DNA from: a virus
Direction: 5' to 3' (one strand)
IMG/VR virus record: IMGVR_UViG_3300043540_000121
Location: 1 to 28,794 of that record
Length of the DNA stretch: 28,794 nt
Shown here piece after piece: positions 3,701 to 26,678 of this stretch. Within the stretch, counting starts at the first letter, position 1. Each line of letters starts with the position of its first letter. Made by a program: the position numbers and the translations under genes. The notes under the pieces are model-generated. The model made no database searches and was not told where the DNA came from. It saw only the letters and a list, made by a program, of their open reading frames with translations.

Positions 3701-3909
3701 TCTCGCCTTGGGCCGTCTGGTTCGGCGTCGCCTTCGCGGCGTTCGCTTGCATCGAGGCTTACGCGATTGGCACGCATCGCATCCCGACGCTCTCGCGTAC
3801 GGTGTGGCGGTTACAGGCGCGATTCCCGATTGTCGGCTTTGTCATGGGCGTTCTTGTCGGCGGTCTGGCCGTGCATTTCCTCGGGCTGATCCCGGCCTGC
3901 AATCCGTAG
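3697..3909 (+). CDS. Two-helix small membrane protein, holin candidate
   Basis: The product is 70 residues. ATG 3697 overlaps the previous stop (ATGA). It has two hydrophobic segments, about residues 5-24 (WAVWFGVAFAAFACIEAYAI) and 44-65 (IVGFVMGVLVGGLAVHFLGL), joined by a basic loop (THRIPTLSRTVWRLQARF). Size, topology and the lysin 15 bases downstream fit a class II-type holin. A second candidate (4848) with the same topology lies after the lysin, so roles could be split between holin and antiholin. No specific family was recognised. Confidence 0.6.
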   Translation: MISPWAVWFGVAFAAFACIEAYAIGTHRIPTLSRTVWRLQARFPIVGFVMGVLVGGLAVHFLGLIPACNP

Positions 3910-9797: not shown

Positions 9798-10820
9798 ATG
9801 GGCATCGTCGCCCCCGCCTACGTCACTGTCAACCCCCATTTCATGGAGCCCGGCCTGTTGGTCGCGCAGAGCCAAGTGTCGGGGGCATTCGAGTTGCTTC
9901 CCGATGGCAAGCCCGAGGTCAGGTTGGAGGAGGACACGCTGGCTGTGTACATCCGCCGGCTGGATTTCCGGTCCAAGGCCGCTAGCGGTCAAGCCGCGTA
10001 CAACATGTTGCCGAACGTCAACTTGGCGTTTAGTTACATCAGCACGCCGACTTACCTGACACGTTGCCGCGCTGAATACGACCACCACGACACGGCGGCA
10101 GCCGGGCGCTGGAACGTCGGTATTCAGCAGGCTTACCGCCTGGGCATGCGGCAGGCTCATTTCAACATCATGCGGCAGGCGCTATTGTATGGAATCAACC
10201 CGGCTTTCGGCGAGGGGTTAGTGAACGCGGCCGGCGCAACCAGCGTCAATTTGCCCGCCGACAGCAACGGCAACACCACCATCGTCACCTACGACAACGG
10301 ACAGATCGCCCAGTACCTGCTGAGCCTGTTGTTCGCGATCAAGACCCGCACCAACCAGATCGGCGTCGGCAAGAATTTCACCATTCTGGCCCCGCAGCGC
10401 ATTCTCGGGCAATGGGAATACTCCGTAGTGCAACTGGTGCAGTACCAGCGGGCCGGCGCGGGCACGGAGACCTCGGCGGGCATGGTCAAGCTGATCGGCG
10501 AAGTTAACGAAGACGACATCAAGTGGGTGGCCGACGACACGCTGATCGGTAAGGGTAACGGTGGCACCGACCTCATCATCATCGTCATGCCGGATCTGGA
10601 AGTGATGGACGCGGCCAGCGAGATCAATACCAACGAGTTCGCCAAGACCACGCCGAACGTCAGGTTCAATACCGCGATGTACACCGACATGGTCGCGCCG
10701 CGCGAAATCACGACGCCGCTTCCTGGCGGCGCGGTGGACGTGCTCAGCGAACACCGCATCACCTCGGGTTGGGGTGTGCGGCCGGAAAGTCTGACGCTCC
10801 TCAGCGCGCAGTACCAATAA
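9798..10820 (+). CDS. Major capsid protein, DUF2184-like
   Basis: The product is 340 residues with an ideal AAGGAG site. It has the HK97-fold-type layout expected for DUF2184 capsid proteins: an N-arm (TVNPHFMEPGLLVAQS), a long strand and spine helix region around GIQQAYRLGMRQAHFNIMRQ, the LLYGINPAFGEGLVNAAGA segment, a P-domain-like helix (NGQIAQYLLSLLFAIKTRTN), and a C-terminal strand region with EHRITSGWGVRPESLTLLS. Position after protease/scaffold and decoration protein supports the call. There is no obvious cleavage site; with a protease present, N-terminal processing is possible. A strong hairpin follows the stop. This should be the most abundant virion protein with the tube and sheath. 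Confidence 0.85.
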   Translation: MGIVAPAYVTVNPHFMEPGLLVAQSQVSGAFELLPDGKPEVRLEEDTLAVYIRRLDFRSKAASGQAAYNMLPNVNLAFSYISTPTYLTRCRAEYDHHDTAAAGRWNVGIQQAYRLGMRQAHFNIMRQALLYGINPAFGEGLVNAAGATSVNLPADSNGNTTIVTYDNGQIAQYLLSLLFAIKTRTNQIGVGKNFTILAPQRILGQWEYSVVQLVQYQRAGAGTETSAGMVKLIGEVNEDDIKWVADDTLIGKGNGGTDLIIIVMPDLEVMDAASEINTNEFAKTTPNVRFNTAMYTDMVAPREITTPLPGGAVDVLSEHRITSGWGVRPESLTLLSAQYQ

Positions 10821-14601: not shown

Positions 14602-16266
14602 ATGGCTAACAACATCGTCCTCGTAAATGTGAGCTTACAGGTAGCTCCGACTCCGGCGACGCTTCAGCAGACCGGCGCTCTAGTTTCCTACGGCGGCACC
14701 ATCATTTCGCCCGGAACCTACCAGTTGCTGACGCAACTCAGCGACCTGACGCCGTACATCACCCCGCCCGAGACTGTGACTTCGGCGGTGTGGAGCAGTG
14801 GTGTGGTGACGGTGACCACGACCGTTCCCCACAACCTGCCGAACGGCCAAGTGATTTGGCTGAACCTCGCGGGCTTCACCCCGTCCGGGTACAATGGTTC
14901 CTACGAGTGTACCGTGACCGGGGCCAACACGTTCACCTACGCCCTGGCCAACAGTCCGGGCAGCGTCACGGTGGAGGGCACTTGGCAGCCGATGAGCGCC
15001 ACCACGGTGGTACAAATGGCTACCACGTTCTTCGGCATGGGTTGGTCGCGGGCGGTCTATGTTCTGGAGATGGGCGTTAGTGACGAAAACCATGCCATCG
15101 CCAACTTTAGCACCTACCTGACCAACAACCCCAACAGCAACTATACGCCCGGCGCGAGCGGCTACTTCTACTCTTACCTGCTCCCCCGGACGTGGGACGC
15201 CAATGCCAACCTTCTCACGCTCTTGCAGAACTACGAGAGCCCGACCGCGCGAACTTACTTTTTCATCACCACGACGCTGGCTACTTACGGCGTTTACACT
15301 GCGTTGGAGAAGTGCGCAGTCACGATGATCGAGTCCCCGCTTTGGGGGACTTGGGCGACGAACCAACTGACGGCGGCCACGTGGACCTCGGGCGTGGTGA
15401 CGGCGACCACCACCACCGCTCACGGCGTCGTGCCGGGGGACTGGTTCCAAATCGCAGGCTGCGTGCCCGTGGCGTATAACGGCTGGCACCAGGCAACGGC
15501 CGGCACTACGGCGAGCACGTTGACGTGGTTGAATTCCGCGAACCCCGGGACCATCACCTCCGAAGGCTACCTGGTCGCCAGCTATTATTCCAATCCCGGG
15601 GTGTCCAGCAACGAGTTTTCGCTGGCGGCGGCGTTCTACGCTAGTCTCAATTATTCCCCTAGCACCACCAACCGGGTGGCTCCGTTCGCCTTCCAGTTCC
15701 TGTACGGGGTGACGCCGTTCCCGACCCGTTATAACAACTCGTTGCTCGCCACGCTCAAGGCGGCGGGGGTCAATTACGTGGGTACTGGGGCGGAGGGCGG
15801 CATCAGTAACGCTGTGCTCTATTGGGGCACGACGATGGATCTTAACTCGTTCAATTACTGGTACAGCATTGACTGGGTGCAGATCAACCTGGACATGGAC
15901 ACGGCGAACGCGGTCATCAATGGCTCCAACAATCCCGTCAACCCACTTTACTACAACCAGCCGGGCATCGACTCCCTGCAGGCGGTGGCGGTGGGTACTA
16001 TGAACCGGGGTATCACCTACGGGCTGGTGTCGGGTAATGTCATCGCCACGACGCTGGACGGCCCCGTGTTGGATACGAACCTTAGCGCCGGCCTGTACGC
16101 CGACCAGACGGTAGTCAACGCCGTGCCTTTCATCACCTACTCGCTGGAGAATCCTAGCGACTACAAGATCGGCCGTTATGCCGGACTGAGTGTCGTATAC
16201 ATGCCCCAGCAAGGTTTCACTCAGATCGTGTACAACGTCGTCGCCACCCAGCTGATCGCCCAGTGA
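14602..16266 (+). CDS. Tail sheath protein (DUF3383-like) with two inserted FCCH-like domains
   Basis: The product is 554 residues with GGAGGG upstream. The conserved core (VNVSLQVAPTPATLQQTGAL then GTYQLLTQLSDLTPYI; later WYSIDWVQINLDMDTANAVI and a VPFITYSLENPSDYKIGRYA segment) is that of contractile sheath proteins of the DUF3383 family. Two related beta insertions are visible: residues about 59-132 (VWSSGVVTVTTTVPHNLPNG) and about 256-327 (TWTSGVVTATTTTAHGVVPG), each with a (G)YNG turn. They resemble the E1-FCCH-like domain and probably decorate the outer sheath surface. The tail tube follows directly, as expected. Confidence 0.85.
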   Translation: MANNIVLVNVSLQVAPTPATLQQTGALVSYGGTIISPGTYQLLTQLSDLTPYITPPETVTSAVWSSGVVTVTTTVPHNLPNGQVIWLNLAGFTPSGYNGSYECTVTGANTFTYALANSPGSVTVEGTWQPMSATTVVQMATTFFGMGWSRAVYVLEMGVSDENHAIANFSTYLTNNPNSNYTPGASGYFYSYLLPRTWDANANLLTLLQNYESPTARTYFFITTTLATYGVYTALEKCAVTMIESPLWGTWATNQLTAATWTSGVVTATTTTAHGVVPGDWFQIAGCVPVAYNGWHQATAGTTASTLTWLNSANPGTITSEGYLVASYYSNPGVSSNEFSLAAAFYASLNYSPSTTNRVAPFAFQFLYGVTPFPTRYNNSLLATLKAAGVNYVGTGAEGGISNAVLYWGTTMDLNSFNYWYSIDWVQINLDMDTANAVINGSNNPVNPLYYNQPGIDSLQAVAVGTMNRGITYGLVSGNVIATTLDGPVLDTNLSAGLYADQTVVNAVPFITYSLENPSDYKIGRYAGLSVVYMPQQGFTQIVYNVVATQLIAQ

Positions 16267-16277
16267 GGAACTGAACC

Positions 16278-16718
16278 ATGGCAAACCCTATCGTTCCGCA
16301 GGGGACGTTAAACCGTCTCCGAGGTTCCGTCACCGTCGCCGGGAACCCGGGGCTGAACGTCACCGCGTCCTATTTGGGTAAAGACGGCATCTCCATGAGT
16401 TTCGACGGCGCGGCCAACACGGCTATCGACACCATGGTGGGTATTGTACAATCCCCGGAACCGTATCAGCGCGTCACGCTGGCCATCCATCTGCTCAAGA
16501 CCCAGGCCCTGGCGGAGTTGTGGAAACAGCAGATTGAATCCAACGTGCTGATCGGCGACGTTGTAATCAAAACCGACGCCTCGACGCTCAACCCCTACCA
16601 GTTGAGCAACTGCGCCGTAGTGAACGTCAACCCGTTGAAATTCGACGGAACGGACGCCGGATGGGTCGTGATGGTCGTCGGCATCTACTACATCAACAGT
16701 CAACTGTGGTCCATCTGA
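16278..16718 (+). CDS. Tail tube protein
   Basis: The product is 146 residues and starts 11 bases after the sheath stop. Beta-strand pattern LRGSVTVAGNPGLNVTASYL then ISMSFDGAANTAIDTMVGIV, a helix (KTQALAELWKQQIESNVLIG) and a final strand pair (AGWVVMVVGIYYINSQLW) match the compact tube fold of contractile tails. Size and position after the sheath are standard. It should form the hexameric inner tube. Confidence 0.8.
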   Translation: MANPIVPQGTLNRLRGSVTVAGNPGLNVTASYLGKDGISMSFDGAANTAIDTMVGIVQSPEPYQRVTLAIHLLKTQALAELWKQQIESNVLIGDVVIKTDASTLNPYQLSNCAVVNVNPLKFDGTDAGWVVMVVGIYYINSQLWSI

Positions 16719-16741: not shown

Positions 16742-17323
16742 ATGGCAATCCGAATTAACCGTAGACTTTGTATGGTGGTGCCCGTAGAGCTAGCGGACGG
16801 CTCTACGGTTTACGTTCACAGCACGCCGATTGGGCGTGAAGTGTTCGAGACGTACTTCGAGAACTTCTCACGCACGTTCACACAGATTTACGCCGGAGGC
16901 CACGGGATTACCTCAGCCCCCCGGATAGCATACCTGCTGCTAAAGAAGGACGCCCAGGAGCACGGCAACTGGGAAGGCGAGCGGGGGGTGCGGCGCGGGT
17001 TGTTTGAAGAGATCGCTCGGCTGACCAGCGTGGTGGCCCCCGGAGCCGGGGGGTGGACGACGATGCCGTGGGACGAGGCTGTGAAGGCGGGGGTGCTGGA
17101 CGAGGACGACGTGAGCGAGGTGTGGAACGCTCTGGCTTATTTTACGCTAGCCTCAGCCATGCACAAGAAGGCAGAGCTGAGGCCAATGTTAGAGGCAGCG
17201 TTGAGTCTGTGGGGTGCGCGGCCCGAATCATTGAATTGTACGGAGTTCATCGCTTCCTTGCCGACATCGACTCCGACCGACAATTCTGGCGAGAAGGCGA
17301 CACTATCTTCCATACCGCAGTAG
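16742..17323 (+). CDS. Tail assembly chaperone (frame-0 product)
   Basis: The product is 193 residues with GGGGTGAG before the start. A beta N-terminus (MVVPVELADGSTVYVHSTPI) is followed by a helical body (GREVFETYFENFSRTFTQIY; MPWDEAVKAGVLDEDDVSEV; NALAYFTLASAMHKKAELRP) and a Ser/Thr/Pro-rich end (ASLPTSTPTDNSG). Location between tube and tape measure is diagnostic of the tail assembly chaperone pair. The -1 frame stays open through and beyond its stop to 17490, as expected for a programmed frameshift that makes a longer form. See the next entry. Confidence 0.75.
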   Translation: MAIRINRRLCMVVPVELADGSTVYVHSTPIGREVFETYFENFSRTFTQIYAGGHGITSAPRIAYLLLKKDAQEHGNWEGERGVRRGLFEEIARLTSVVAPGAGGWTTMPWDEAVKAGVLDEDDVSEVWNALAYFTLASAMHKKAELRPMLEAALSLWGARPESLNCTEFIASLPTSTPTDNSGEKATLSSIPQ

Positions 17324-17490
17324 ACTGGGCCGCCACGGTTGGTTTTCGGGATTTGCAGGAGCATTACAACGACAAGCTGATCGAGATGGGGCGCGAGCCC
17401 CTGCCGGTGTACACAACGCCCCTGGAGTTCCGGAACAGGTTCCTGATCCGGTTCCTAGAGGCTCAGAACAGGAGAAGCAACAATGGCTAA
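17221..17490 (+). CDS. Tail assembly chaperone, -1-frame continuation
   Basis: In the frame one base behind the chaperone gene, protein-like sequence is seen from about 17220 (LADIDSDRQFWREGDTIFHT) through the chaperone stop and on to TAA at 17488-17490 (WAATVGFRDLQEHYNDKLIE; TTPLEFRNRFLIRFLEAQNR). The overlap with frame 0 is about 100 bases. There is no convincing ribosome-binding site. The only in-frame non-ATG start in the overlap is TTG 17236. A -1 ribosomal frameshift is therefore the most likely expression route, as with lambda G/GT. I did not find a canonical XXXYYYZ heptamer, so the slip site and the exact start are unknown. The start given here is approximate. Confidence 0.6.
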   Translation, partial: ARIIELYGVHRFLADIDSDRQFWREGDTIFHTAVDWAATVGFRDLQEHYNDKLIEMGREPLPVYTTPLEFRNRFLIRFLEAQNRRSNNG

Positions 17491-17830
17491 GTTGGAAGAC
17501 TGCACCAAGGCGATGGACGCGCTAATGGACAGCGTGGGGAAGCTGAACGCGCGGATGGACGCGATGGGGGCGATGGGGGCGAAGAGGGCGGACGGCTACT
17601 CCCCGGCCGGGGGGTTCCATAACTACCTCGTGTCCAAAGGTTACACTCACAAAGGGACGGAGTCTCGTGAGAGGGTGAAGTTTCACTCCTATTTGCACCC
17701 GAAACATCCCGGCGTAACTGTTGCTGAACATGAGGGTGGGATGGCTCACTACTGGACCAGTAGGGGGAAAAGCGGCCACAACACTACTCAACTCCACACA
17801 CACCTGGGGCGTCCGAAAGACGCAGAGTAA
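17483..17830 (+). CDS. Small protein with coiled-coil N-terminus and His-rich C-terminal domain
   Basis: The product is 115 residues; AGGAGAAG lies just upstream of ATG 17483, which overlaps the chaperone continuation by 8 bases. Residues 1-33 form a heptad helix (MDALMDSVGKLNARMDAM). Residues about 38-108 form a compact domain rich in His, Tyr and Gly: FHNYLVSKGYTHKG, VKFHSYLHPKHPGVTV, MAHYWTSRGKSGHN, THLGRP. The middle faintly recalls the HicA fold (a 'KxGY...G..H..Y.HP' order), but no HicB partner is present. The place between chaperone and tape measures suggests a tail assembly role. I cannot name the family. Confidence 0.6.
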   Translation: MAKLEDCTKAMDALMDSVGKLNARMDAMGAMGAKRADGYSPAGGFHNYLVSKGYTHKGTESRERVKFHSYLHPKHPGVTVAEHEGGMAHYWTSRGKSGHNTTQLHTHLGRPKDAE

Positions 17831-17836
17831 CCTTTC

Positions 17837-19897
17837 GTGCCCCTCAAGCACAAAATAGACCCCATCGAGGCCGACGTAAAGAACATCACGGCGAGCCGTG
17901 ATGCGTTGTCTAATTTCATCGCCAAGGTGCGGTCTGACAAGACAGAGTGGGGCAAGTACGGTCAAGAGTTGAGCAAAGCGTACAAGCTCAACTTCCAGAT
18001 CAGCCAGTTGAGCCGAACCACTGCCGACCGTATGGACAGTGTGGCGGGCAAGACGGAGCGCATGGGCGGGGTGCTGCGGGGCGTCACCAACGCCTTCGGC
18101 ACCCTAGCAAACCACACCAAGAGCATCGCCGAGCACCTGGGGCGCATTAGCGTTAGCCTATTGAGCTTCGCCACCCTAGCGGGCTTCGTCGGGGGTCTTG
18201 TCGGCGGCGGTAGCATGTTTGGTCTCACGGAGGCTAGCCAAGCCATCGCGGTGCGCCGGCGCATGCTGCTGGGCGTGGGCGGCAGTTACGGGGCATACAG
18301 CTCTTTCGGCCTGAACATGGGTCGATTCGTAGACACCCAGGCGCTGTTGGGCGGGGTGTTCGCGGGCACCTACGACGTGACCTCCCCGGCCTACCGGGGT
18401 CTCATGGTGGCGGGCGCGGCCCCCGGCCGAACGGACAGCCCGACCGATACGGCGGTAGACGTGCTGCGCCGCTTACCTCAGATCTTCGACGGCACGCCGA
18501 AGGAGTTGGTGGGACCGCGCGCCCAGTCCCTCGGGCTAACTGACCTGCTTAGTTTGCAAGACATACGCCGATACCTGGAGGCCAGCCCCGAGGAGCGTGA
18601 GAAGCAAATTAGCCAATACGGGGCGGACCGCAACAGCTTAGACCTGTCGCCGGCCGTGTTGGAGAAGTGGCAAAACTTCACCAACGCCGTCGACCGCGCG
18701 GGGTTGCGTATAGAAGCCGTGTTGGGCAACCGGCTGGCCAGCCTGTCGCCGCCGCTTCAAAAACTGTCAGAGCAGGCCACCCGCTTCGTGTCGGCGTTGA
18801 TCGGTTCCAAGACCTTTTCCGACGCAATTCAGAAAGTCACGGAGGGCGTTAACTGGCTCGCCGGGCAGTTCTCCAACGCCCAGTTCAAGCGTGATATGGC
18901 GGATTTCCTTCAGGGCATGGGACAGTTGCTGCCCTTGTTGCAGAACGCCGTCAGCGTGGCCAGTGGCATCATTCGCGGCGGGTGGTACGTGGGTAGGCTA
19001 TTCCTAGACCCGAAATATAACCCGCCGTCATTCGGTAGCTTTTTGAACGACGTGTTGCCGCCAGTAGACCCGGAAGGCGGCGTCTCGCGCACCAAAGGGC
19101 CACCCACCACTTTTGACCGCAATTCCATCCGTTACGGTCACCACCGGCGAGTCAGGAGCGAGCAGCCCGGTTACACAGGCACAGGAACACACGACCCGTC
19201 GTTGACCCCTGACCCCTACTCACACTTCACACCCCCGGCCGCTTGGAGTCACGCTCCTATCCCCGTCCGTCCGGCCCCGCATCTTCCCCCGGCCGACCCC
19301 CACTCAATTAGGTACGGCCACCACCCCAGGGACGCTTACCAGGGCCTCCGCATACTTCCGGGTCATGGGGCGACAGCCGGGGGACCAGTTCAGCCGGGGT
19401 TATTGGACGTGGCGCGCGAACTACAGAGCAGCGACCCTTCGGTGGGGTTCACGGCGCTTAATGACCGTTACCACGTGCTGGGTGGGGGTAGTGGGCCTTA
19501 CGGAGCACACGGCCAAGGGCTGGCGTTCGACGCCACGATGGAGAACATAGAGGCCGACAAACAGATACTCAGGCAGAGGATGGAACGGGAAGGTTTCGTC
19601 GAGGGCGCGTGGGGCTCAGGCCAAGGAGATTTCTCTATAGAGCCGGGGGCGGGTGGTGGTACAGGCCCGCATTTGCATTTCCAGTGGAACAGCGCCGAAG
19701 CAGCGCAGCGTTATCACGCCTACGTAGAGCAGCACAAGAAACACAACGCGCCGCGCAGCGTAGCGCGGCCCCCCCAGCAGCAGACCAGCATGCTGGACAA
19801 CCTACACCACGCGGCGCGGCAACCCAAGGTGGTGGTGGTGGAGAATAACAGCAACACGATGGCCCACGTGAGCACCGACCGCATGGCGTGGGCCTAG
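17837..19897 (+). CDS. Tape-measure-like tail protein 1 with C-terminal M15-like peptidase domain
   Basis: The product is 686 residues from GTG 17837. An N-terminal helical region (about 1-105) precedes a hydrophobic Gly-rich segment (LSFATLAGFVGGLVGGGSMF). A conserved body shared with the next gene follows (GVGGSYGAYSSFGLNMGRF; YDVTSPAYRGLM; LLSLQDIRRYLEA; AVDRAGLRIEAVLGNRLASL). A Pro/His-rich linker around 430-500 holds two copies of SIRYGHH. Residues about 520-640 carry HGQGLAFD (H558, D565; HxxGxAxD) and GPHLHFQW (H612, H614), the zinc-ligand pattern of M15-type peptidoglycan peptidases. It probably works at the tail tip to open the cell wall. Confidence 0.75.
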   Translation: MPLKHKIDPIEADVKNITASRDALSNFIAKVRSDKTEWGKYGQELSKAYKLNFQISQLSRTTADRMDSVAGKTERMGGVLRGVTNAFGTLANHTKSIAEHLGRISVSLLSFATLAGFVGGLVGGGSMFGLTEASQAIAVRRRMLLGVGGSYGAYSSFGLNMGRFVDTQALLGGVFAGTYDVTSPAYRGLMVAGAAPGRTDSPTDTAVDVLRRLPQIFDGTPKELVGPRAQSLGLTDLLSLQDIRRYLEASPEEREKQISQYGADRNSLDLSPAVLEKWQNFTNAVDRAGLRIEAVLGNRLASLSPPLQKLSEQATRFVSALIGSKTFSDAIQKVTEGVNWLAGQFSNAQFKRDMADFLQGMGQLLPLLQNAVSVASGIIRGGWYVGRLFLDPKYNPPSFGSFLNDVLPPVDPEGGVSRTKGPPTTFDRNSIRYGHHRRVRSEQPGYTGTGTHDPSLTPDPYSHFTPPAAWSHAPIPVRPAPHLPPADPHSIRYGHHPRDAYQGLRILPGHGATAGGPVQPGLLDVARELQSSDPSVGFTALNDRYHVLGGGSGPYGAHGQGLAFDATMENIEADKQILRQRMEREGFVEGAWGSGQGDFSIEPGAGGGTGPHLHFQWNSAEAAQRYHAYVEQHKKHNAPRSVARPPQQQTSMLDNLHHAARQPKVVVVENNSNTMAHVSTDRMAWA

Positions 19898-19900
19898 CCC

Positions 19901-21763
19901 ATGTCCCTCCGCACCATACTAGAGGTCGAGATCGACGACAGCCGCTTCCGGAAGTTCCGGGAGCTGTTTGACTCTTACCAGAAGACGCTTGAGAAGGTGC
20001 CAGGGGCGTGGAAAGAGGTTAACAAGCAGACCCAGGCCAACAAGACGCTGGTGGACCAGTTGATCGCGGCTGCAGCGGCCCAGGGCAACACGGGCGAGCA
20101 GAAGGCCGCGACGGCGCGCAAGATTGAATCCAGCCTACGCGGCTCGTCCAAGCTGTGGGAAGTCACGGCCGGCTCCGTTGACTTGGTGGGCAAGCACATC
20201 AGCAACATCACCTCCAAGCTGGCCAAATGGACCACGTTGACCACGGCGTTCACCGGCCTGCTCGGCGGGGGAAGCTTGTGGGGCATCGACAAGTTGGCGG
20301 AGGTCATCGCCAACAACAGACGAACTGCGATGGGCCTGGGCTCCAGTTACGGCTCCATGAACTCTTTCAACTTGAACTACTCGCGACTCATTAACACTGG
20401 CTCCTTTCTCAACAACATCTCCAACGCGCGCTTCGACATCACCTCCCCGGCTTACCGGGCGCTCATCTCCCTGGGTATCAACCCTAACAAGATACGGAAC
20501 AGCGATACATCAGACTTGGCCCAGGAGACGGTGACGCGCATTCATCAGTTGTTTGCTGGGACTAAGCCCGGCATGGTGGGGGCGAAGGCCCAGGCTTATG
20601 GCGTAGACCAGTTGATGTCCCTTCAGGAGATAGTGGCCATCTCAAAGGCGAACCCCGAGGAATTGAAGCGCATCGCGGGGAAGTACAAGCAAGACTCCAA
20701 GACAATGGGCGTGGGTGACGCGGCCCAACGTAAGTGGCAAGATTTGGTGACAGCGCTCGACCGCGCCGGCCGGCGCATCCAGGCCGTGTTTATGGACAAA
20801 CTGGCCGCCTTGGAGCCAGCGCTGGAGAAGTTGTCTTCGGCCGTGGTGGACGCCGTCGCGGCGTTCGCCAACAGCGGCGTGTTGGAGCAGTGGATCACAG
20901 CGATAAGCGGAGGGTTGGGGCGGCTGGCCGACTTCATCGACAGCCCTGAGTTCCAGAAGGACGTTCGGTCTTTCGGGGCGTGGCTGGCCGAGGCGGTTAA
21001 GACCATCTGGCGCTTCGTGGCGGCCTTCGGCGGCAAGGTTGGGGACGCGGTGGGCACCACCTTAGACGGGGCCGTTGACCCGTCATACAAGAAAGACGCT
21101 TACGTTCCGCTCGCCCCAGACTACGGCGCGGCGGCGCGCGGCCCGTCTAGCTCGCCTCACTCGCCGAAGGCGGACTGGAACGACACGTCCAATCCCCCGG
21201 CCGGGGGGTCTTCCTCTCCTCCTTTGGGTTCTACGGCCAGCACCAAGGCGTTGTGGTTGATGGGGCAGCTTCAGAAAGATTACAACCTCACGCCAGAACA
21301 GGCGGCCGGCGCTGTTGGTTGGATGATGGGCGAAACGGCTGGAACCATGCGGCCCGATATCGTGCGACCGGGGGGCGAAGATACTGGCTGGGCGCAGTGG
21401 GTTGGGTCTCGTCGCCAGGAACTATTGGCGCGGGGGCCGTTGACCGATGCGAGCAACTATGCTCAGATCAAGCATGAATTGGACACCAATTATTCGGGCG
21501 TGCTGGAACACTTACGGCAGGCAAAAACAGTGGACGAGGCCCTATACGATTGGGGTGAATATTACGAGGGAGCAGGCGGCACTCCCGGGGGTATGGAGTA
21601 CAATTACCAAATTCACCGTCCCTTTGGACACAGGGTGCTAGAGGACTACTATAAATCTGCGGGCAAAGTCCCACGCGTAGTGGTTCGGCCTAACACGGGG
21701 GCCAACCCTCATACGGCCGGCTACCTGGCCAATCAGTATTCTGTGCCGCAGGGGAGCAACTAA
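19901..21763 (+). CDS. Tape-measure-like tail protein 2 with C-terminal tail lysozyme domain
   Basis: The product is 620 residues and begins 3 bases after the first tape-measure gene. A helical N-terminus (about 1-100) leads to the same body as its neighbour: TTAFTGLLGGGSLWGIDKLA, GLGSSYGSMNSFNLNYSRLI, FDITSPAYRALISLG, LMSLQEIVAI and ALDRAGRRIQAVFMDKLAAL. After a Ser/Pro linker (about 400-445), residues 450-585 match the phage tail lysozyme type (Phage_lysozyme2): DYNLTPEQAAGAVGWMMGET with likely catalytic E478, GGEDTGWAQWVGSRRQELLA, then alternating helices ending YNYQIHRPFGHRVLED. The wall enzyme thus differs from that of the paralogue. Either protein, or both, could be the length ruler. 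Confidence 0.8.
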   Translation: MSLRTILEVEIDDSRFRKFRELFDSYQKTLEKVPGAWKEVNKQTQANKTLVDQLIAAAAAQGNTGEQKAATARKIESSLRGSSKLWEVTAGSVDLVGKHISNITSKLAKWTTLTTAFTGLLGGGSLWGIDKLAEVIANNRRTAMGLGSSYGSMNSFNLNYSRLINTGSFLNNISNARFDITSPAYRALISLGINPNKIRNSDTSDLAQETVTRIHQLFAGTKPGMVGAKAQAYGVDQLMSLQEIVAISKANPEELKRIAGKYKQDSKTMGVGDAAQRKWQDLVTALDRAGRRIQAVFMDKLAALEPALEKLSSAVVDAVAAFANSGVLEQWITAISGGLGRLADFIDSPEFQKDVRSFGAWLAEAVKTIWRFVAAFGGKVGDAVGTTLDGAVDPSYKKDAYVPLAPDYGAAARGPSSSPHSPKADWNDTSNPPAGGSSSPPLGSTASTKALWLMGQLQKDYNLTPEQAAGAVGWMMGETAGTMRPDIVRPGGEDTGWAQWVGSRRQELLARGPLTDASNYAQIKHELDTNYSGVLEHLRQAKTVDEALYDWGEYYEGAGGTPGGMEYNYQIHRPFGHRVLEDYYKSAGKVPRVVVRPNTGANPHTAGYLANQYSVPQGSN

Positions 21764-21766
21764 CCC

Positions 21767-22489
21767 ATGGGTATCAGCGGCGGCGCGGCGGCTTTCAAGC
21801 TCCAGTTTCAACTGTCCCCCATCGTCATGACGGGCGGCATTGCGTCGGGAATCATCGGCGGCGTGTTGCCCTTGATCCAACTGGTCAGCGGCCTCGCCGG
21901 AACCAGCCTGGTGGGGGAGAGTTCGTTCGGCGACTCTCTGGACGACGCGTTCGCCTTCTTCCAGCCCCTCCCTGGGGGCACGTTGATTGATCAGCAGATT
22001 GGCATGTACCCGTTCGCCAACCAGAAGGTGGCGGCCAACGCGGTCATTCAACAACCACTTAGCATCTCGATGCTGATGATCTGCCCCGCCGGCCGAGGCG
22101 GAGGCTACGCCAGCAAGTTCGGTCTGATGCAGGCGATGCAGGCTAGTTTCAAGGCTCACAACGTAGGGGGCGGTTTGTATGATATCATGACACCCAGTTA
22201 CGTGTACACGAACTGCGTCATGACGAATATGACCGATGTGTCATCTAGCATGACCAAGCAGGTGCAGAACGCTTACAAGTTAGACTTTCTTCAACCTCTT
22301 GTGACGCTGGCCGACGCGGCGGGCGCACAGAGCGCGCTGATGAACAGCATCACCAACGGCACCCCGACGAACGGGGCGTTGAGCGGGCAGGCCGGTGTAG
22401 CTGGCGTCACGACGGGTGCGACAGCGCCGTCCTTCCTGGGCAACAACTCGGGACAGGGCGCGTCTAGCGTCGGGGGTGGAGCGCCATGA
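21767..22489 (+). CDS. Tail/baseplate adaptor protein
   Basis: The product is 240 residues. It opens with a beta-rich stretch (FKLQFQLSPIVMTGGIASGI then GGVLPLIQLVSGLAG), followed by YPFANQKVAANAVIQQPLSI, SMLMICPAGRGGGYASKF, VGGGLYDIMTPSYVYTNCVM, a TNMTDVSSSMTKQVQNAY segment and FLQPLVTLADA. Proteins of this layout follow the tape measure in many Bcep781- and AP22-like phages and are annotated as tail or baseplate proteins. The C-terminal 60 residues are Gly/Thr/Ser-rich and probably flexible. The likely role is joining tube and hub, by position only. Confidence 0.65.
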   Translation: MGISGGAAAFKLQFQLSPIVMTGGIASGIIGGVLPLIQLVSGLAGTSLVGESSFGDSLDDAFAFFQPLPGGTLIDQQIGMYPFANQKVAANAVIQQPLSISMLMICPAGRGGGYASKFGLMQAMQASFKAHNVGGGLYDIMTPSYVYTNCVMTNMTDVSSSMTKQVQNAYKLDFLQPLVTLADAAGAQSALMNSITNGTPTNGALSGQAGVAGVTTGATAPSFLGNNSGQGASSVGGGAP

Positions 22490-22974
22490 CCTCCTACTAC
22501 CCCCTCGTCCCGTCCACAGTCACCGCGCCCAGCTTCGCGCCTACGTTTGACGGCTCGCAGTACATTTGCACGGTCACGTGGAACCTGTTTGGCCAGCGGT
22601 ATTACGTCAACTGTTATGACGGATCAGGCGACCGCATTTTCACTGTGCCGGTCATTCCTTCGGCCGACGCGCTAGCGCTGGCGTCCCTGGTATGGGACGC
22701 GGCTAGCCTCCGCGTTTTCGCCACCACCAAACAGCCCCACGGTCTCGCCGTAGGCACCCTAGTCCAACTGACCCTAGCGGGGACCTCCCCGGACGGTTAT
22801 AACGGGGCCTACGCCTGCTCCATAACGTCTCCTACGGGGTTCTTCTATCCAATGAGCACTGATCCGGGGCAGATCGTCACGCTGGGTTCCGTGAGCTACC
22901 TGATCAGCATGACGGCAGGTTACTTCAACTCTACGCTGGTGTTTCGGGACGGGCAGTTCGAGGTATCACCGTGA
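22486..22974 (+). CDS. Baseplate plug-like protein with inserted FCCH-like domain
   Basis: The product is 162 residues, ATGA-coupled to the previous gene. The split core YICTVTWNLFGQRYYVNCYD (residues about 26-45) and the ending YFNSTLVFRDGQFEVSP belong to the small baseplate plug proteins that close the tail tube. Between them, residues about 66-139 hold an extra beta domain (VFATTKQPHGLAVGTLVQLT; DGYNGAYACSIT) of the same type as those in the sheath. Core identity is good by its two hallmark ends. Confidence 0.7.
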   Translation: MTSYYPLVPSTVTAPSFAPTFDGSQYICTVTWNLFGQRYYVNCYDGSGDRIFTVPVIPSADALALASLVWDAASLRVFATTKQPHGLAVGTLVQLTLAGTSPDGYNGAYACSITSPTGFFYPMSTDPGQIVTLGSVSYLISMTAGYFNSTLVFRDGQFEVSP

Positions 22975-23903
22975 GCCGCTGGTATAAAATACAAGCTGCC
23001 GGTTTGACGTTCGACGCCACGGGCGATCCGAACGCCCTTAACGTTGAATTTGACATCCCCGTAGCACCTTTGCACGTGCCCTCGGGCAAGGCTTTCGTAC
23101 GGGTGTGGGGCATTGACCTCCAGACCCTGTTGAACGCTAATAGTTACAACAACCAGCCTATCACTGTGTACGGGGGTATGCAACAGGGTTTGCCGCTCGC
23201 CAACCCTAGTGAGCAGGGCGAGTTGGTACAGGGCAACATTTTCCCGGCGCTGGGCAATTGGGTTGGCACCGACATGACCCTGGACTTCTACATCGGCCCC
23301 CCGCTCGGGGCCAACAACCCAGGGCAGGACGTCAACATCGTTCACAACTGGCCGGCCAACACCCCGCTGTCGGGTCCGCTGAAGCAGACGTTGCAAACGG
23401 CGTTTCCGAAGCTTAATGTTGTGATGAACATCAGCCCCAACCTGAAACTTCCGCACGACGACCGGGGGATGTACCAGACGCTGGGTCAGTATGCAAATTA
23501 CTTGTTCAAGATTAGTTGGGGCATCATGGGCAGCCAGAAAGGTTATTCCGGGCTGAAGATCACCATGAACCGTGGAAACCTGGTGGTGAGTGACGGCACC
23601 CAGTCATCCAGTGGCCCGCAGATCGCGTTCCAAGACCTTATCGGTCAACCAATTTGGACGGGGCCGCAAAGCATCCAATTCAAGACCGTGATGCGAGGGG
23701 ACATACAGGTCAACGACAAGGTGACGTTGCCGCAGACACCGGCCACGTTGACCCCAGCGGCAGGTACGGCGGCAGGTAGTTCGGCGTCTAACCTTATCTC
23801 AGGGCAGTTTACGGTCACAAGCATTCGTCATACCGGAAATTTCCGTCAGCCCGATTGGCCCAGTTGGGCCACCACGTTTGACGCATTAAAGGCTACCTCC
23901 TAA
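22971..23903 (+). CDS. Baseplate hub protein (gpD/gp27-like)
   Basis: The product is 310 residues from GTG 22971, overlapping the plug stop (GTGA). The N-terminal beta domain (LNVEFDIPVAPLHVPSGKAF; RVWGIDLQTLLNANSYNNQP; ITVYGGMQQGLPLANPSEQG) and the middle (LVQGNIFPALGNWVGTDMTL) are typical of the hub proteins that hold the spike. The C-terminal half (GLKITMNRGNLVVSDGT; GQFTVTSIRHTGNFRQPDW) includes the characteristic VTSIRHTGNFR strand. It sits between plug and spike, consistent with a trimeric hub. Confidence 0.75.
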   Translation: MSRWYKIQAAGLTFDATGDPNALNVEFDIPVAPLHVPSGKAFVRVWGIDLQTLLNANSYNNQPITVYGGMQQGLPLANPSEQGELVQGNIFPALGNWVGTDMTLDFYIGPPLGANNPGQDVNIVHNWPANTPLSGPLKQTLQTAFPKLNVVMNISPNLKLPHDDRGMYQTLGQYANYLFKISWGIMGSQKGYSGLKITMNRGNLVVSDGTQSSSGPQIAFQDLIGQPIWTGPQSIQFKTVMRGDIQVNDKVTLPQTPATLTPAAGTAAGSSASNLISGQFTVTSIRHTGNFRQPDWPSWATTFDALKATS

Positions 23904-24889: not shown

Positions 24890-25251
24890 GAGTCTTCGGC
24901 CGCACCACGAACGAGTTGGGCGTACAAACTTGGACGGTCGTCGAGACCGACGCCAACGGGTACAATGATTTCGTCTATTTGACCGCGCTGGCGCAGGAAC
25001 TCAAATTGAACCTGGGGGAGAGTCCATTCTGGGCTAACCGGGGCATACCCGCCAAGCAGAGTGTGGTGCAGCAGGTGGCCCCCGACTATTACACTATGCT
25101 CATGCAACAACGTTATGCGCCTTATTTTATGAGCATCAGCATAGCGAAAGCCCCTTTGACGTACACCAAAGGGGGGTTATACTCCCCCGCTTATAACATC
25201 AGCGTCACCACGCACTACGGCGTGGTGTTCCAAACATCGGTGCCCATCTGA
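24886..25251 (+). CDS. Baseplate wedge protein (gp25-like)
   Basis: The product is 121 residues from ATG 24886 (ATGA overlap); an upstream GTG in frame is rejected. It begins RVFGRTTNELGVQTWTVVET. A helical core (FVYLTALAQELKLNLGESPF then WANRGIPAKQSVVQQVAPDY) and a beta end (YFMSISIAKAPLTYTKGG; NISVTTHYGVVFQ) follow. The NLGESPFWANRGIP motif is typical of gp25-like wedge proteins of this phage group, which contact sheath and baseplate. Confidence 0.75.
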   Translation: MRVFGRTTNELGVQTWTVVETDANGYNDFVYLTALAQELKLNLGESPFWANRGIPAKQSVVQQVAPDYYTMLMQQRYAPYFMSISIAKAPLTYTKGGLYSPAYNISVTTHYGVVFQTSVPI

Positions 25252-26678
25252 TGGCGACCTTTCCTATCATTATGGGTACTTCGGGGTATATCCCGCAAAC
25301 GCCAGCTTCTCTTCAACAACAGTTGTTGTCCAGCGTCGCGGCGACCAACCCCGGTTACACGGCGAACTTGCCGGGTACATTGATCGAGGACATTAGCTCT
25401 ACCGACGTGGCGGCGCTGCTCCAGTGTGACTCCAGCGTGGCGGAGATCATCAACTCCCTGACCCCCTACGGGGCCAATGAGTTCTTGCTCAATCAATTGG
25501 GGAACCTCTACGGGGTGTTGCCCCAGGTGGCCACCAACACCTCCGTAAACGTCGTGTTCACCGGCCCCCCCGGGTTCGTCATCGCTACGGGTTTCGTGGT
25601 GGGGGACGGTAATTACCAGTACGTTGTGCAAGCTCCGGGTGGCATAATCGGGGCCGGAGGCAACAGCCTACCGCTGTATGCCGTAGCCAACACTACGGGC
25701 ACGTGGGCCGTGCCAGCGGGCAGCGTGACGGAGCTAGTGACCTCCGCTCCCGTCAACGTAACGCTTACGGTGAATAACCCTGAGGACGGCACCCCCTCGG
25801 CGGCCGGCGAGACGGTGGAAGCCTACCGGACCCGTGTGCTCCAGGCGGGTTACGCCCCCGGTCAGGGTATGCTGACGTATCTAAAAACGCTTTTGGGCAA
25901 CGTTCCGGGCGTCGCTTCACGACTTATATCCGTGCGGCAGGTTAGCACAAATCCCTATTACTGGGAGGTCATCTGTGGCGGGGGTGATCAGTACCAGGTA
26001 GCATTTGCCATCTTCTCGGCAGGATTGCTTCTCACCAGTCTGACGGGTTCGGTGTTGAGTGTTTCGGGAATCACCAACGCGACCCAAGCCGTGGTGACTA
26101 CCACTCTTAATCATGGTTATACGACGGGGCAAGTGGCTCAGATCACCGGCGCGACCGGCATGACGGCGATAAACAACATCAATTTCACGGTCACGGTGCT
26201 GACTCCAACTACGTTTAGCATCAACGTGGACACCACAACCTTCGGAGCTTACACGGGGGGCGGCTCGTTGACCCCCAACCTACGCAACGTTACGGTTCCC
26301 GTCTACGATTACCCGGACACCTACCAGGTGACGTACGTCAACCCTCCGTTACAACAGGTGGCCATCACGGCGAAATGGAACACCATAGCCACCAACTATA
26401 TTTCGCCTGTCGCTGTGGCGCAGTTGGCCCAGCCAGCAATCGTGGACTACATCAACGGAATCGTAGTTGGTCAACCCATTAACTTGATGGAATTAAACAC
26501 AGTGTTCCAGACGGCAGTGGCCAGCTTGTTACCCGCCCAGCTGTTAACGCGCCTCGTGTTCACGGTCAGCATCAACGGGAACGGGGCTAGCCCGCTAAGC
26601 GGCACATATGAAATACCGGGGGACCCCGAGAGCTACTTTTACACCACCATCGCATCCGTGACGGTGACCCAGGGATGA
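25251..26678 (+). CDS. Baseplate J-like wedge protein with inserted FCCH-like domain
   Basis: The product is 475 residues; the start shares a base with the gp25-like stop. It has the classic J-family course: an N-terminal helical part (NLPGTLIEDISSTDVAALLQ; NEFLLNQLGNLYGVLPQVA), a beta middle with VVFTGPPGFVIATGFVVGDG, and a helical region (SAAGETVEAYRTRVLQAGYA). Residues about 267-343 form an added beta domain (TLNHGYTTGQVAQITGATGM; TVLTPTTFSINVDTTTFGAY) of FCCH type. The C-terminal part resumes with YQVTYVNPPLQQVAITAKWN and PINLMELNTVFQTAVASLL. It is a wedge building block. Confidence 0.85.
   Translation: MATFPIIMGTSGYIPQTPASLQQQLLSSVAATNPGYTANLPGTLIEDISSTDVAALLQCDSSVAEIINSLTPYGANEFLLNQLGNLYGVLPQVATNTSVNVVFTGPPGFVIATGFVVGDGNYQYVVQAPGGIIGAGGNSLPLYAVANTTGTWAVPAGSVTELVTSAPVNVTLTVNNPEDGTPSAAGETVEAYRTRVLQAGYAPGQGMLTYLKTLLGNVPGVASRLISVRQVSTNPYYWEVICGGGDQYQVAFAIFSAGLLLTSLTGSVLSVSGITNATQAVVTTTLNHGYTTGQVAQITGATGMTAINNINFTVTVLTPTTFSINVDTTTFGAYTGGGSLTPNLRNVTVPVYDYPDTYQVTYVNPPLQQVAITAKWNTIATNYISPVAVAQLAQPAIVDYINGIVVGQPINLMELNTVFQTAVASLLPAQLLTRLVFTVSINGNGASPLSGTYEIPGDPESYFYTTIASVTVTQG

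Follow-up and report, generated by a model that had tools for sequence, protein, structure and literature searches.

The tape measure proteins (TMPs) of tailed phages are regarded as homotrimers or homohexamers. Some of them carry wall-hydrolase domains, including those of mycobacteriophage TM4, T5 (pb2), phiIPLA35 and phiCbK (gp95); these resemble the proteins studied here, but were described as single TMPs (PMC6116005; PMC3556154). The IMG/VR virus record IMGVR_UViG_3300043540_000121 (positions 1 to 28,794; this whole 28.8 kb stretch is called the window) encodes a contractile-tail module, according to the PHROGs and Pfam matches of its open reading frames (ORFs). Its TMP body family is shared with Pantoea phage PdC23 (Certevirus), the Klebsiella phages RothC, RothD and vB_Kpn_Chronis, the Yersinia vB_YenM phages, the Shewanella phage vB_Sb_QDWS and Rac-SA53 from Escherichia. 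These relatives also have the same order of capsid, sheath, tube, chaperone, TMP, phrog_7750 protein and hub, and a C-terminal enzyme or enzyme-like domain on the TMP. However, the records read contain one TMP each, ending in an SLT lytic transglycosylase or a domain unnamed by Pfam, with no peptidase signature. In the window, two tandem paralogues, TMP1 and TMP2, occupy the slot of the single TMP, 3' of the tube and frameshifted chaperone genes and 5' of the hub gene. TMP1 ends in a probable LAS metallopeptidase, and TMP2 in a predicted tail lysozyme.

A related pair of activities occurs in phi29 gp13, the tail-knob wall enzyme (PDB 3csq), whose lysozyme domain is like that of TMP2 (Z 11.4). 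This protein also bears a LAS-type metallopeptidase, and both activities presumably reach the wall together. It is not a tape measure, and both domains lie in one protein; whereas the window splits them over two TMP paralogues. In the open-access literature searched, a doublet of paralogous tape measures is not described for any phage; subscription journals lay mostly outside this coverage and novelty is not proven. Papers with the phrase 'two tape measure proteins' dealt with repeats in the TMPs of two different prophages or with database homologues from mass spectrometry, and the phiCbK paper speaks of two chaperones for the tape measure.

The original prediction, made from the letters of the DNA, had proposed tandem paralogues with a shared body, and the two ORFs were found exactly where it placed them (17837-19897 and 19901-21763). 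The shared body was longer than claimed, starting from residue 6-7: blastp aligned TMP1 residues 7-425 with TMP2 residues 6-418 (29% identity and 49% positives over 421 aa, 10 gaps, E 6e-47), and tblastn gave E 3e-55. This likeness is not one of low complexity, because both copies match the same family, phrog_7694 (TMP1 E 4e-20; TMP2 E 2e-50). TMP2 residues 1-390 align with the TMPs of PdC23, RothC/RothD, Chronis and the vB_YenM phages, and TMP1 aligns with proteins of QDWS and the Klebsiella phages; the annotated TMPs of PdC23 and RothD are among the proteins matched by the body. Since the single-TMP relatives show the same gene order and a homologous body, tape-measure identity was accepted for both from homology and gene position, with a putative role in tail-length control. 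The AlphaFold2 (AF2) model of TMP2 had a mean predicted local distance difference test score (pLDDT) of 66, with a well-predicted core at about 130-310. No solved fold for the body was present among the structure-search matches listed, which the enzyme domain dominated.

The C-terminus of TMP2 is a predicted glycan hydrolase, a tail lysozyme, as had been proposed; it is of the phi29 gp13 type. PF18013 (Phage_lysozyme2) matches residues 460-561 (E 2e-12; 47.8 bits against a cut-off of 28.2), and the AF2 model of the domain matches the 3csq lysozyme domain over 137 residues. The C-terminus of TMP1 gave no enzyme match in Pfam or NCBIfam, and no Pfam match even at E 1. From about residue 504 to residue 640 it shares 34% identity with the end of Joad gp230, a 'putative endolysin' of the Erwinia jumbo phages, with all zinc-site residues kept; the Joad protein differs in being a 2561-residue jumbo-phage protein with the LAS domain at its end. 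A scan of viral contigs with the TMP1 domain revealed 23 homologous loci, several on contigs above 200 kb, and the motif HxxGxAxD ... HxH was invariant across 16 aligned sequences. In TMP1 it corresponds to H558, D565, H612 and H614, which were found at these predicted positions, as was E478 of TMP2; E602 of TMP1 is a further candidate.

The AF2 model of the TMP1 domain (pLDDT 83.6) was consistent with this assignment. Its best 22 VIA-align matches were all LAS proteins, with modest Z values below 8 (hedgehog 7.8, VldE 7.4, LysECD7 5.3, ChiX 5.2 and the zinc DD-peptidase 1lbu 5.2), and the next match had Z 4.9. Foldseek alone found nothing significant with this model, and PDB sequence searches with the domain gave nothing meaningful. 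The domain is therefore graded as a probable LAS metallopeptidase of zinc type, not as a proven M15 member. The earlier label 'M15-like zinc peptidase' fits the zinc-site motif and the predicted LAS fold; the M15 part was replaced by the LAS superfamily, as M15 membership could not be demonstrated: M15 endolysins occur among the structural matches, and no M15 profile matched. Both C-termini are predicted to have wall-hydrolase-type folds, and the two domains are unrelated.

The rarity of the doublet was surveyed by running profiles of the tube, the TMP body and the phrog_7750 protein over about 250 fetched loci. A locus was called complete when both the tube and the phrog_7750 protein were present, and 164 distinct complete loci were counted. 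One TMP ORF was found in 160 of them and two in four (the window, L020, L084 and L192). L192 and also L170 were rejected as doublets, being single TMPs broken by frame changes; with L192 read in this way, 161/164 have one TMP, and two occur only in the window, L020 (IMGVR_UViG_3300019890_000003) and L084 (IMGVR_UViG_3300036828_000509). A single tape measure is thus the norm, as expected. In L020 the first copy carries PF18013 and the second PF05382 Amidase_5 / TIGR02594 (NlpC/P60-like); in L084 a LAS-like motif lies on the 940-aa first copy, and a 470-aa ORF stands between the copies. A LAS or NlpC/P60-like peptidase signature was present in 3/3 doublets (TMP1, L020_b and L084_a only) vs 0/160 singles (hypergeometric 1.4e-6, or 1.6e-5 on the 70 singles reduced at 65% identity, with relatedness not corrected). 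Among 166 TMPs scored with an iterated local profile, 84 had SLT, 13 had tail lysozymes and none had both. Most of the remaining TMPs, about one third of the total (e.g. L003, L005 and L030), end in a common domain, 'NNPGNLR ... WAP..ENDT.AYI', that no profile used here names; from its sequence it appears enzyme-like, and perhaps represents an undescribed wall-enzyme family.

Tandem TMP paralogues, one with a predicted peptidase and its partner with a predicted glycan hydrolase, therefore stand amid single-TMP relatives. In the search of related genomes proposed earlier, doublets of this kind turned up in L020 and L084. Pattern searches of viral contigs from both proteins revealed no close relative carrying the same pair. 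A four-sequence profile search of viral contigs returned single-TMP loci only, two of which end at the contig end, and the full TMP profile run over about 780 bacterial genomes returned almost only generic lytic transglycosylases, with no new doublet among the matches listed. The lack of a near relative and the unknown origin of the virus contig might point to an assembly artefact fusing two phages. This is highly improbable, as the join would have to hit a gene boundary, a 3-nt gap, between two genes of equal composition whose proteins are only 29% identical, and similar doublets occur in L020 and L084.

The two copies are not equivalent in their ends. Two profiles seeded from singles, one for the N-terminal motif and one for the C-terminal tail, were scored on all TMPs, with 70 representative singles for comparison. 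The C-terminal tail scored 2.6, -1.0 and 0.4 bits in the peptidase copies TMP1, L020_b and L084_a, below the lowest single (6.6 bits); their partner copies scored 10.0, 25.5 and 16.6 bits, within the range of singles. The N-terminal motif was lost in TMP1 and L084_a and kept in L020_b. TMP1 fell below all 70 singles at both termini; TMP2 lay within their range at both. The pair is not symmetrical: TMP2 resembles the canonical tape measure, and TMP1 lacks the N-terminal motif of the family and most of the C-terminal tail. Body scores were ordinary in five of the six doublet copies (L084_a was low, at the 7th percentile), with TMP1 at the 41st percentile of singles. In diffocin the spike anchors the C-terminal ends of the TMPs, whose N-termini extend to the collar (PMC11329794). 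A normal body combined with altered ends suggests a paralogue that rides beside a canonical ruler.

These scores bear on whether TMP1 and TMP2 are equivalent rulers, mixed in fixed proportion, e.g. within one trimer or hexamer. Both bodies score normally, and the N-terminal motif and the F..D motif lie 343 and 345 residues apart in the two proteins, as such a symmetrical bundle would suggest. Equal length says little in a family that is held to 345 +/- 13 residues throughout, and was dropped as a sign of co-bundling; moreover, docking probably involves the termini, and only TMP2 has normal ones. The altered ends with a normal body moved the preference away from the equal mixture, which is considered unlikely. 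TMP1 could also be a recent passenger or a decaying relic with no role in the tail, as its diverged termini and the rarity of two-copy loci may suggest. This is rather improbable: TMP1 is open over 686 codons with its zinc-ligand motif intact, its body score is ordinary, the codon usage and GC of both TMP genes are like those of neighbouring genes, and the same kind of arrangement occurs in two other contigs.

The gene order also bears on a proposal of the original prediction, that the two TMPs are used in alternative particles, each tail containing one type only. Two complete genes are present, as this needs, and nothing direct favours it. The genes belong to one compact run with 3-nt gaps, and neither a separate chaperone gene nor a gap with room for a promoter was seen between them, invertible elements not having been searched systematically. 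The proposal found no support and is very unlikely.

The reading preferred, with slightly better than even confidence, is a duplicated tape measure, in which the canonical ruler TMP2 and the derived, peptidase-carrying TMP1 are packaged in the same tail tube. It builds on the observed paralogy, operon position, predicted enzyme folds, rarity, doublet-peptidase association and recurring asymmetry. The tape-measure gene would have been duplicated and the copies then specialised. TMP2, keeping the N-terminal motif, body and C-terminal tail, would be the structural ruler with a tail lysozyme. TMP1, diverged at both ends and equipped with a LAS-type zinc peptidase, would bind the tail chaperone through its retained body and enter the tube with TMP2. 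Tail contraction would deliver both proteins to the cell wall; there the TMP2 enzyme may cut glycan strands and the TMP1 enzyme peptides. We infer that both proteins share one virion and one bundle, and that both enzymes are active and cut these bonds; the mixed bundle and co-delivery proposed earlier are plausible.

Several points weigh against this reading. The modelled body core is a compact helical domain, not an extended ruler. Only three doublets are known from the survey, each a singleton contig, so that any persistence of the pair in a lineage is conjectural; in L084 the second copy has no recognisable enzyme, and the peptidase copy seems to bear a further domain. Because the peptidase patterns were written after these sequences had been seen, and because the loci share ancestry, the association is weaker than the nominal 1e-6 to 1e-5 implies. 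Other peptidase classes could escape detection in singles, though the unassigned C-termini were listed and read. The single L024 bears an Amidase_2 domain, read from its sequence.

The origin of the doublets was examined with a tree of the bodies. The two L020 copies were paired (92/87), as were the two L084 copies (87/92), and the window pair fell with L072 and L075 in a four-member clade (98/88). This suggests about three separate doublings; shared origins are also compatible with approximately unbiased (AU) tests, which rejected neither the grouping of the three peptidase copies (p 0.065) nor that of the two lysozyme copies (p 0.27). A sister relationship of the window pair was acceptable too (p 0.64).

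The chaperone frameshift site differs in two of the doublets. A run of at least six T lies between tube and TMP in 162/164 loci, and at the G-to-T frame overlap in the six relatives read in detail. The two loci that miss it are the window (GCT TAT TTT ACG, 17135-17146) and L084 (GTA TAT TTT ACA, about 3814-3825); the third doublet, L020, keeps T8. The -1 frame is conserved in the seven loci read, despite TAT TTT in the window and L084. In lambda the tape measure is bound by gpG and gpGT, whose ratio is important (PMC5009743); a changed ratio in phages with two TMPs is therefore an attractive but unproven link.

The coordinates of the features are given in Table 1. The chaperone G/T overlap precedes the TMP genes and the hub genes follow them, as expected for a TMP position, with a 115-aa ORF intervening before TMP1.

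Table 1. Features of the window and of related loci (positions within each locus).
Feature	Position	Strand	Evidence or remark
Major head protein	9798-10820		phrog_6671/264
Sheath	14602-16266		phrog_205
Tail tube protein	16278..16718	+	phrog_6566 E 5e-57; aligns with same-place gene of relatives; 'tube' from position 3' of sheath gene
Tail assembly chaperone, G-like frame	16742..17323	+	phrog_11810 E 6e-40; homologues at same place in relatives
T-like -1 frame overlapping chaperone	17008..17490	+	phrog_14324 E 1.5e-11; conserved in relatives from about 17134
Small extra gene (115 aa) between chaperone and TMP1	17483..17830	+	ORF; no match in Pfam or PHROGs
TMP1, derived tape-measure paralogue (686 aa, GTG start)	17837..19897	+	paralogy to TMP2; phrog_7694; termini outside single-TMP range
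TMP1 C-terminal predicted LAS metallopeptidase domain	19346..19756	+	H558, D565, E602, H612, H614; alignment, AF2 pLDDT 83.6, VIA-align
TMP2, canonical tape-measure protein (620 aa)	19901..21763	+	phrog_7694; matches TMPs of relatives; termini within single-TMP range
TMP2 C-terminal tail lysozyme domain (E478), predicted	21218..21658	+	PF18013 E 2e-12; phi29 gp13 lysozyme domain 3csq Z 11.4
Conserved phrog_7750 protein directly 3' of TMP gene(s), survey anchor	21767..22489	+	phrog_7750 E 1e-58; alignment
Baseplate hub	22971..23903	+	phrog_196 E 1e-23
Baseplate J-like protein	25251-26678		
ORF of about 410-470 aa, L023	8769-9989		
ORF of about 410-470 aa, L037	8697-9971		
ORF of about 410-470 aa, L060	8757-9977		
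ORF of about 410-470 aa, L082	7987-9222		
ORF of about 410-470 aa, L084	6929-8338		

The ORFs of about 410-470 aa have a common start (RYYRI.I.DP in most) and lie 3' of the TMP gene in several loci; in L084 they separate the two TMPs. Related GIY-YIG-nuclease-like ORFs (FYTYIHL...VFYVGKG), read by eye, adjoin the TMP gene in L056 (9118-9987) and L060 (6263-7078), and are possibly homing endonucleases. Residues 279-341 of the baseplate J-like protein match PF16190 (E 8e-13), a domain that takes its name from the ubiquitin-activating enzyme E1.

The locus seems to be an uncommon means of adding another wall-cutting enzyme to the contents of a phage tail, and a rare variant of a known machine. 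More generally, it is possible, at somewhat less than an even chance, that some contractile phages fill the tail tube with two TMP paralogues, a ruler and an enzyme carrier, delivering glycan- and peptide-cutting enzymes, and that this has arisen more than once. The second wall-cutting activity in this TMP family suggests a route by gene duplication, not by domain fusion. If two paralogues with one carrier are indeed used, the tail lumen can hold a mixture, and there would be a natural route to add cargo to contractile tails. The question of what else rides in the tube beside the ruler would then become directly testable.

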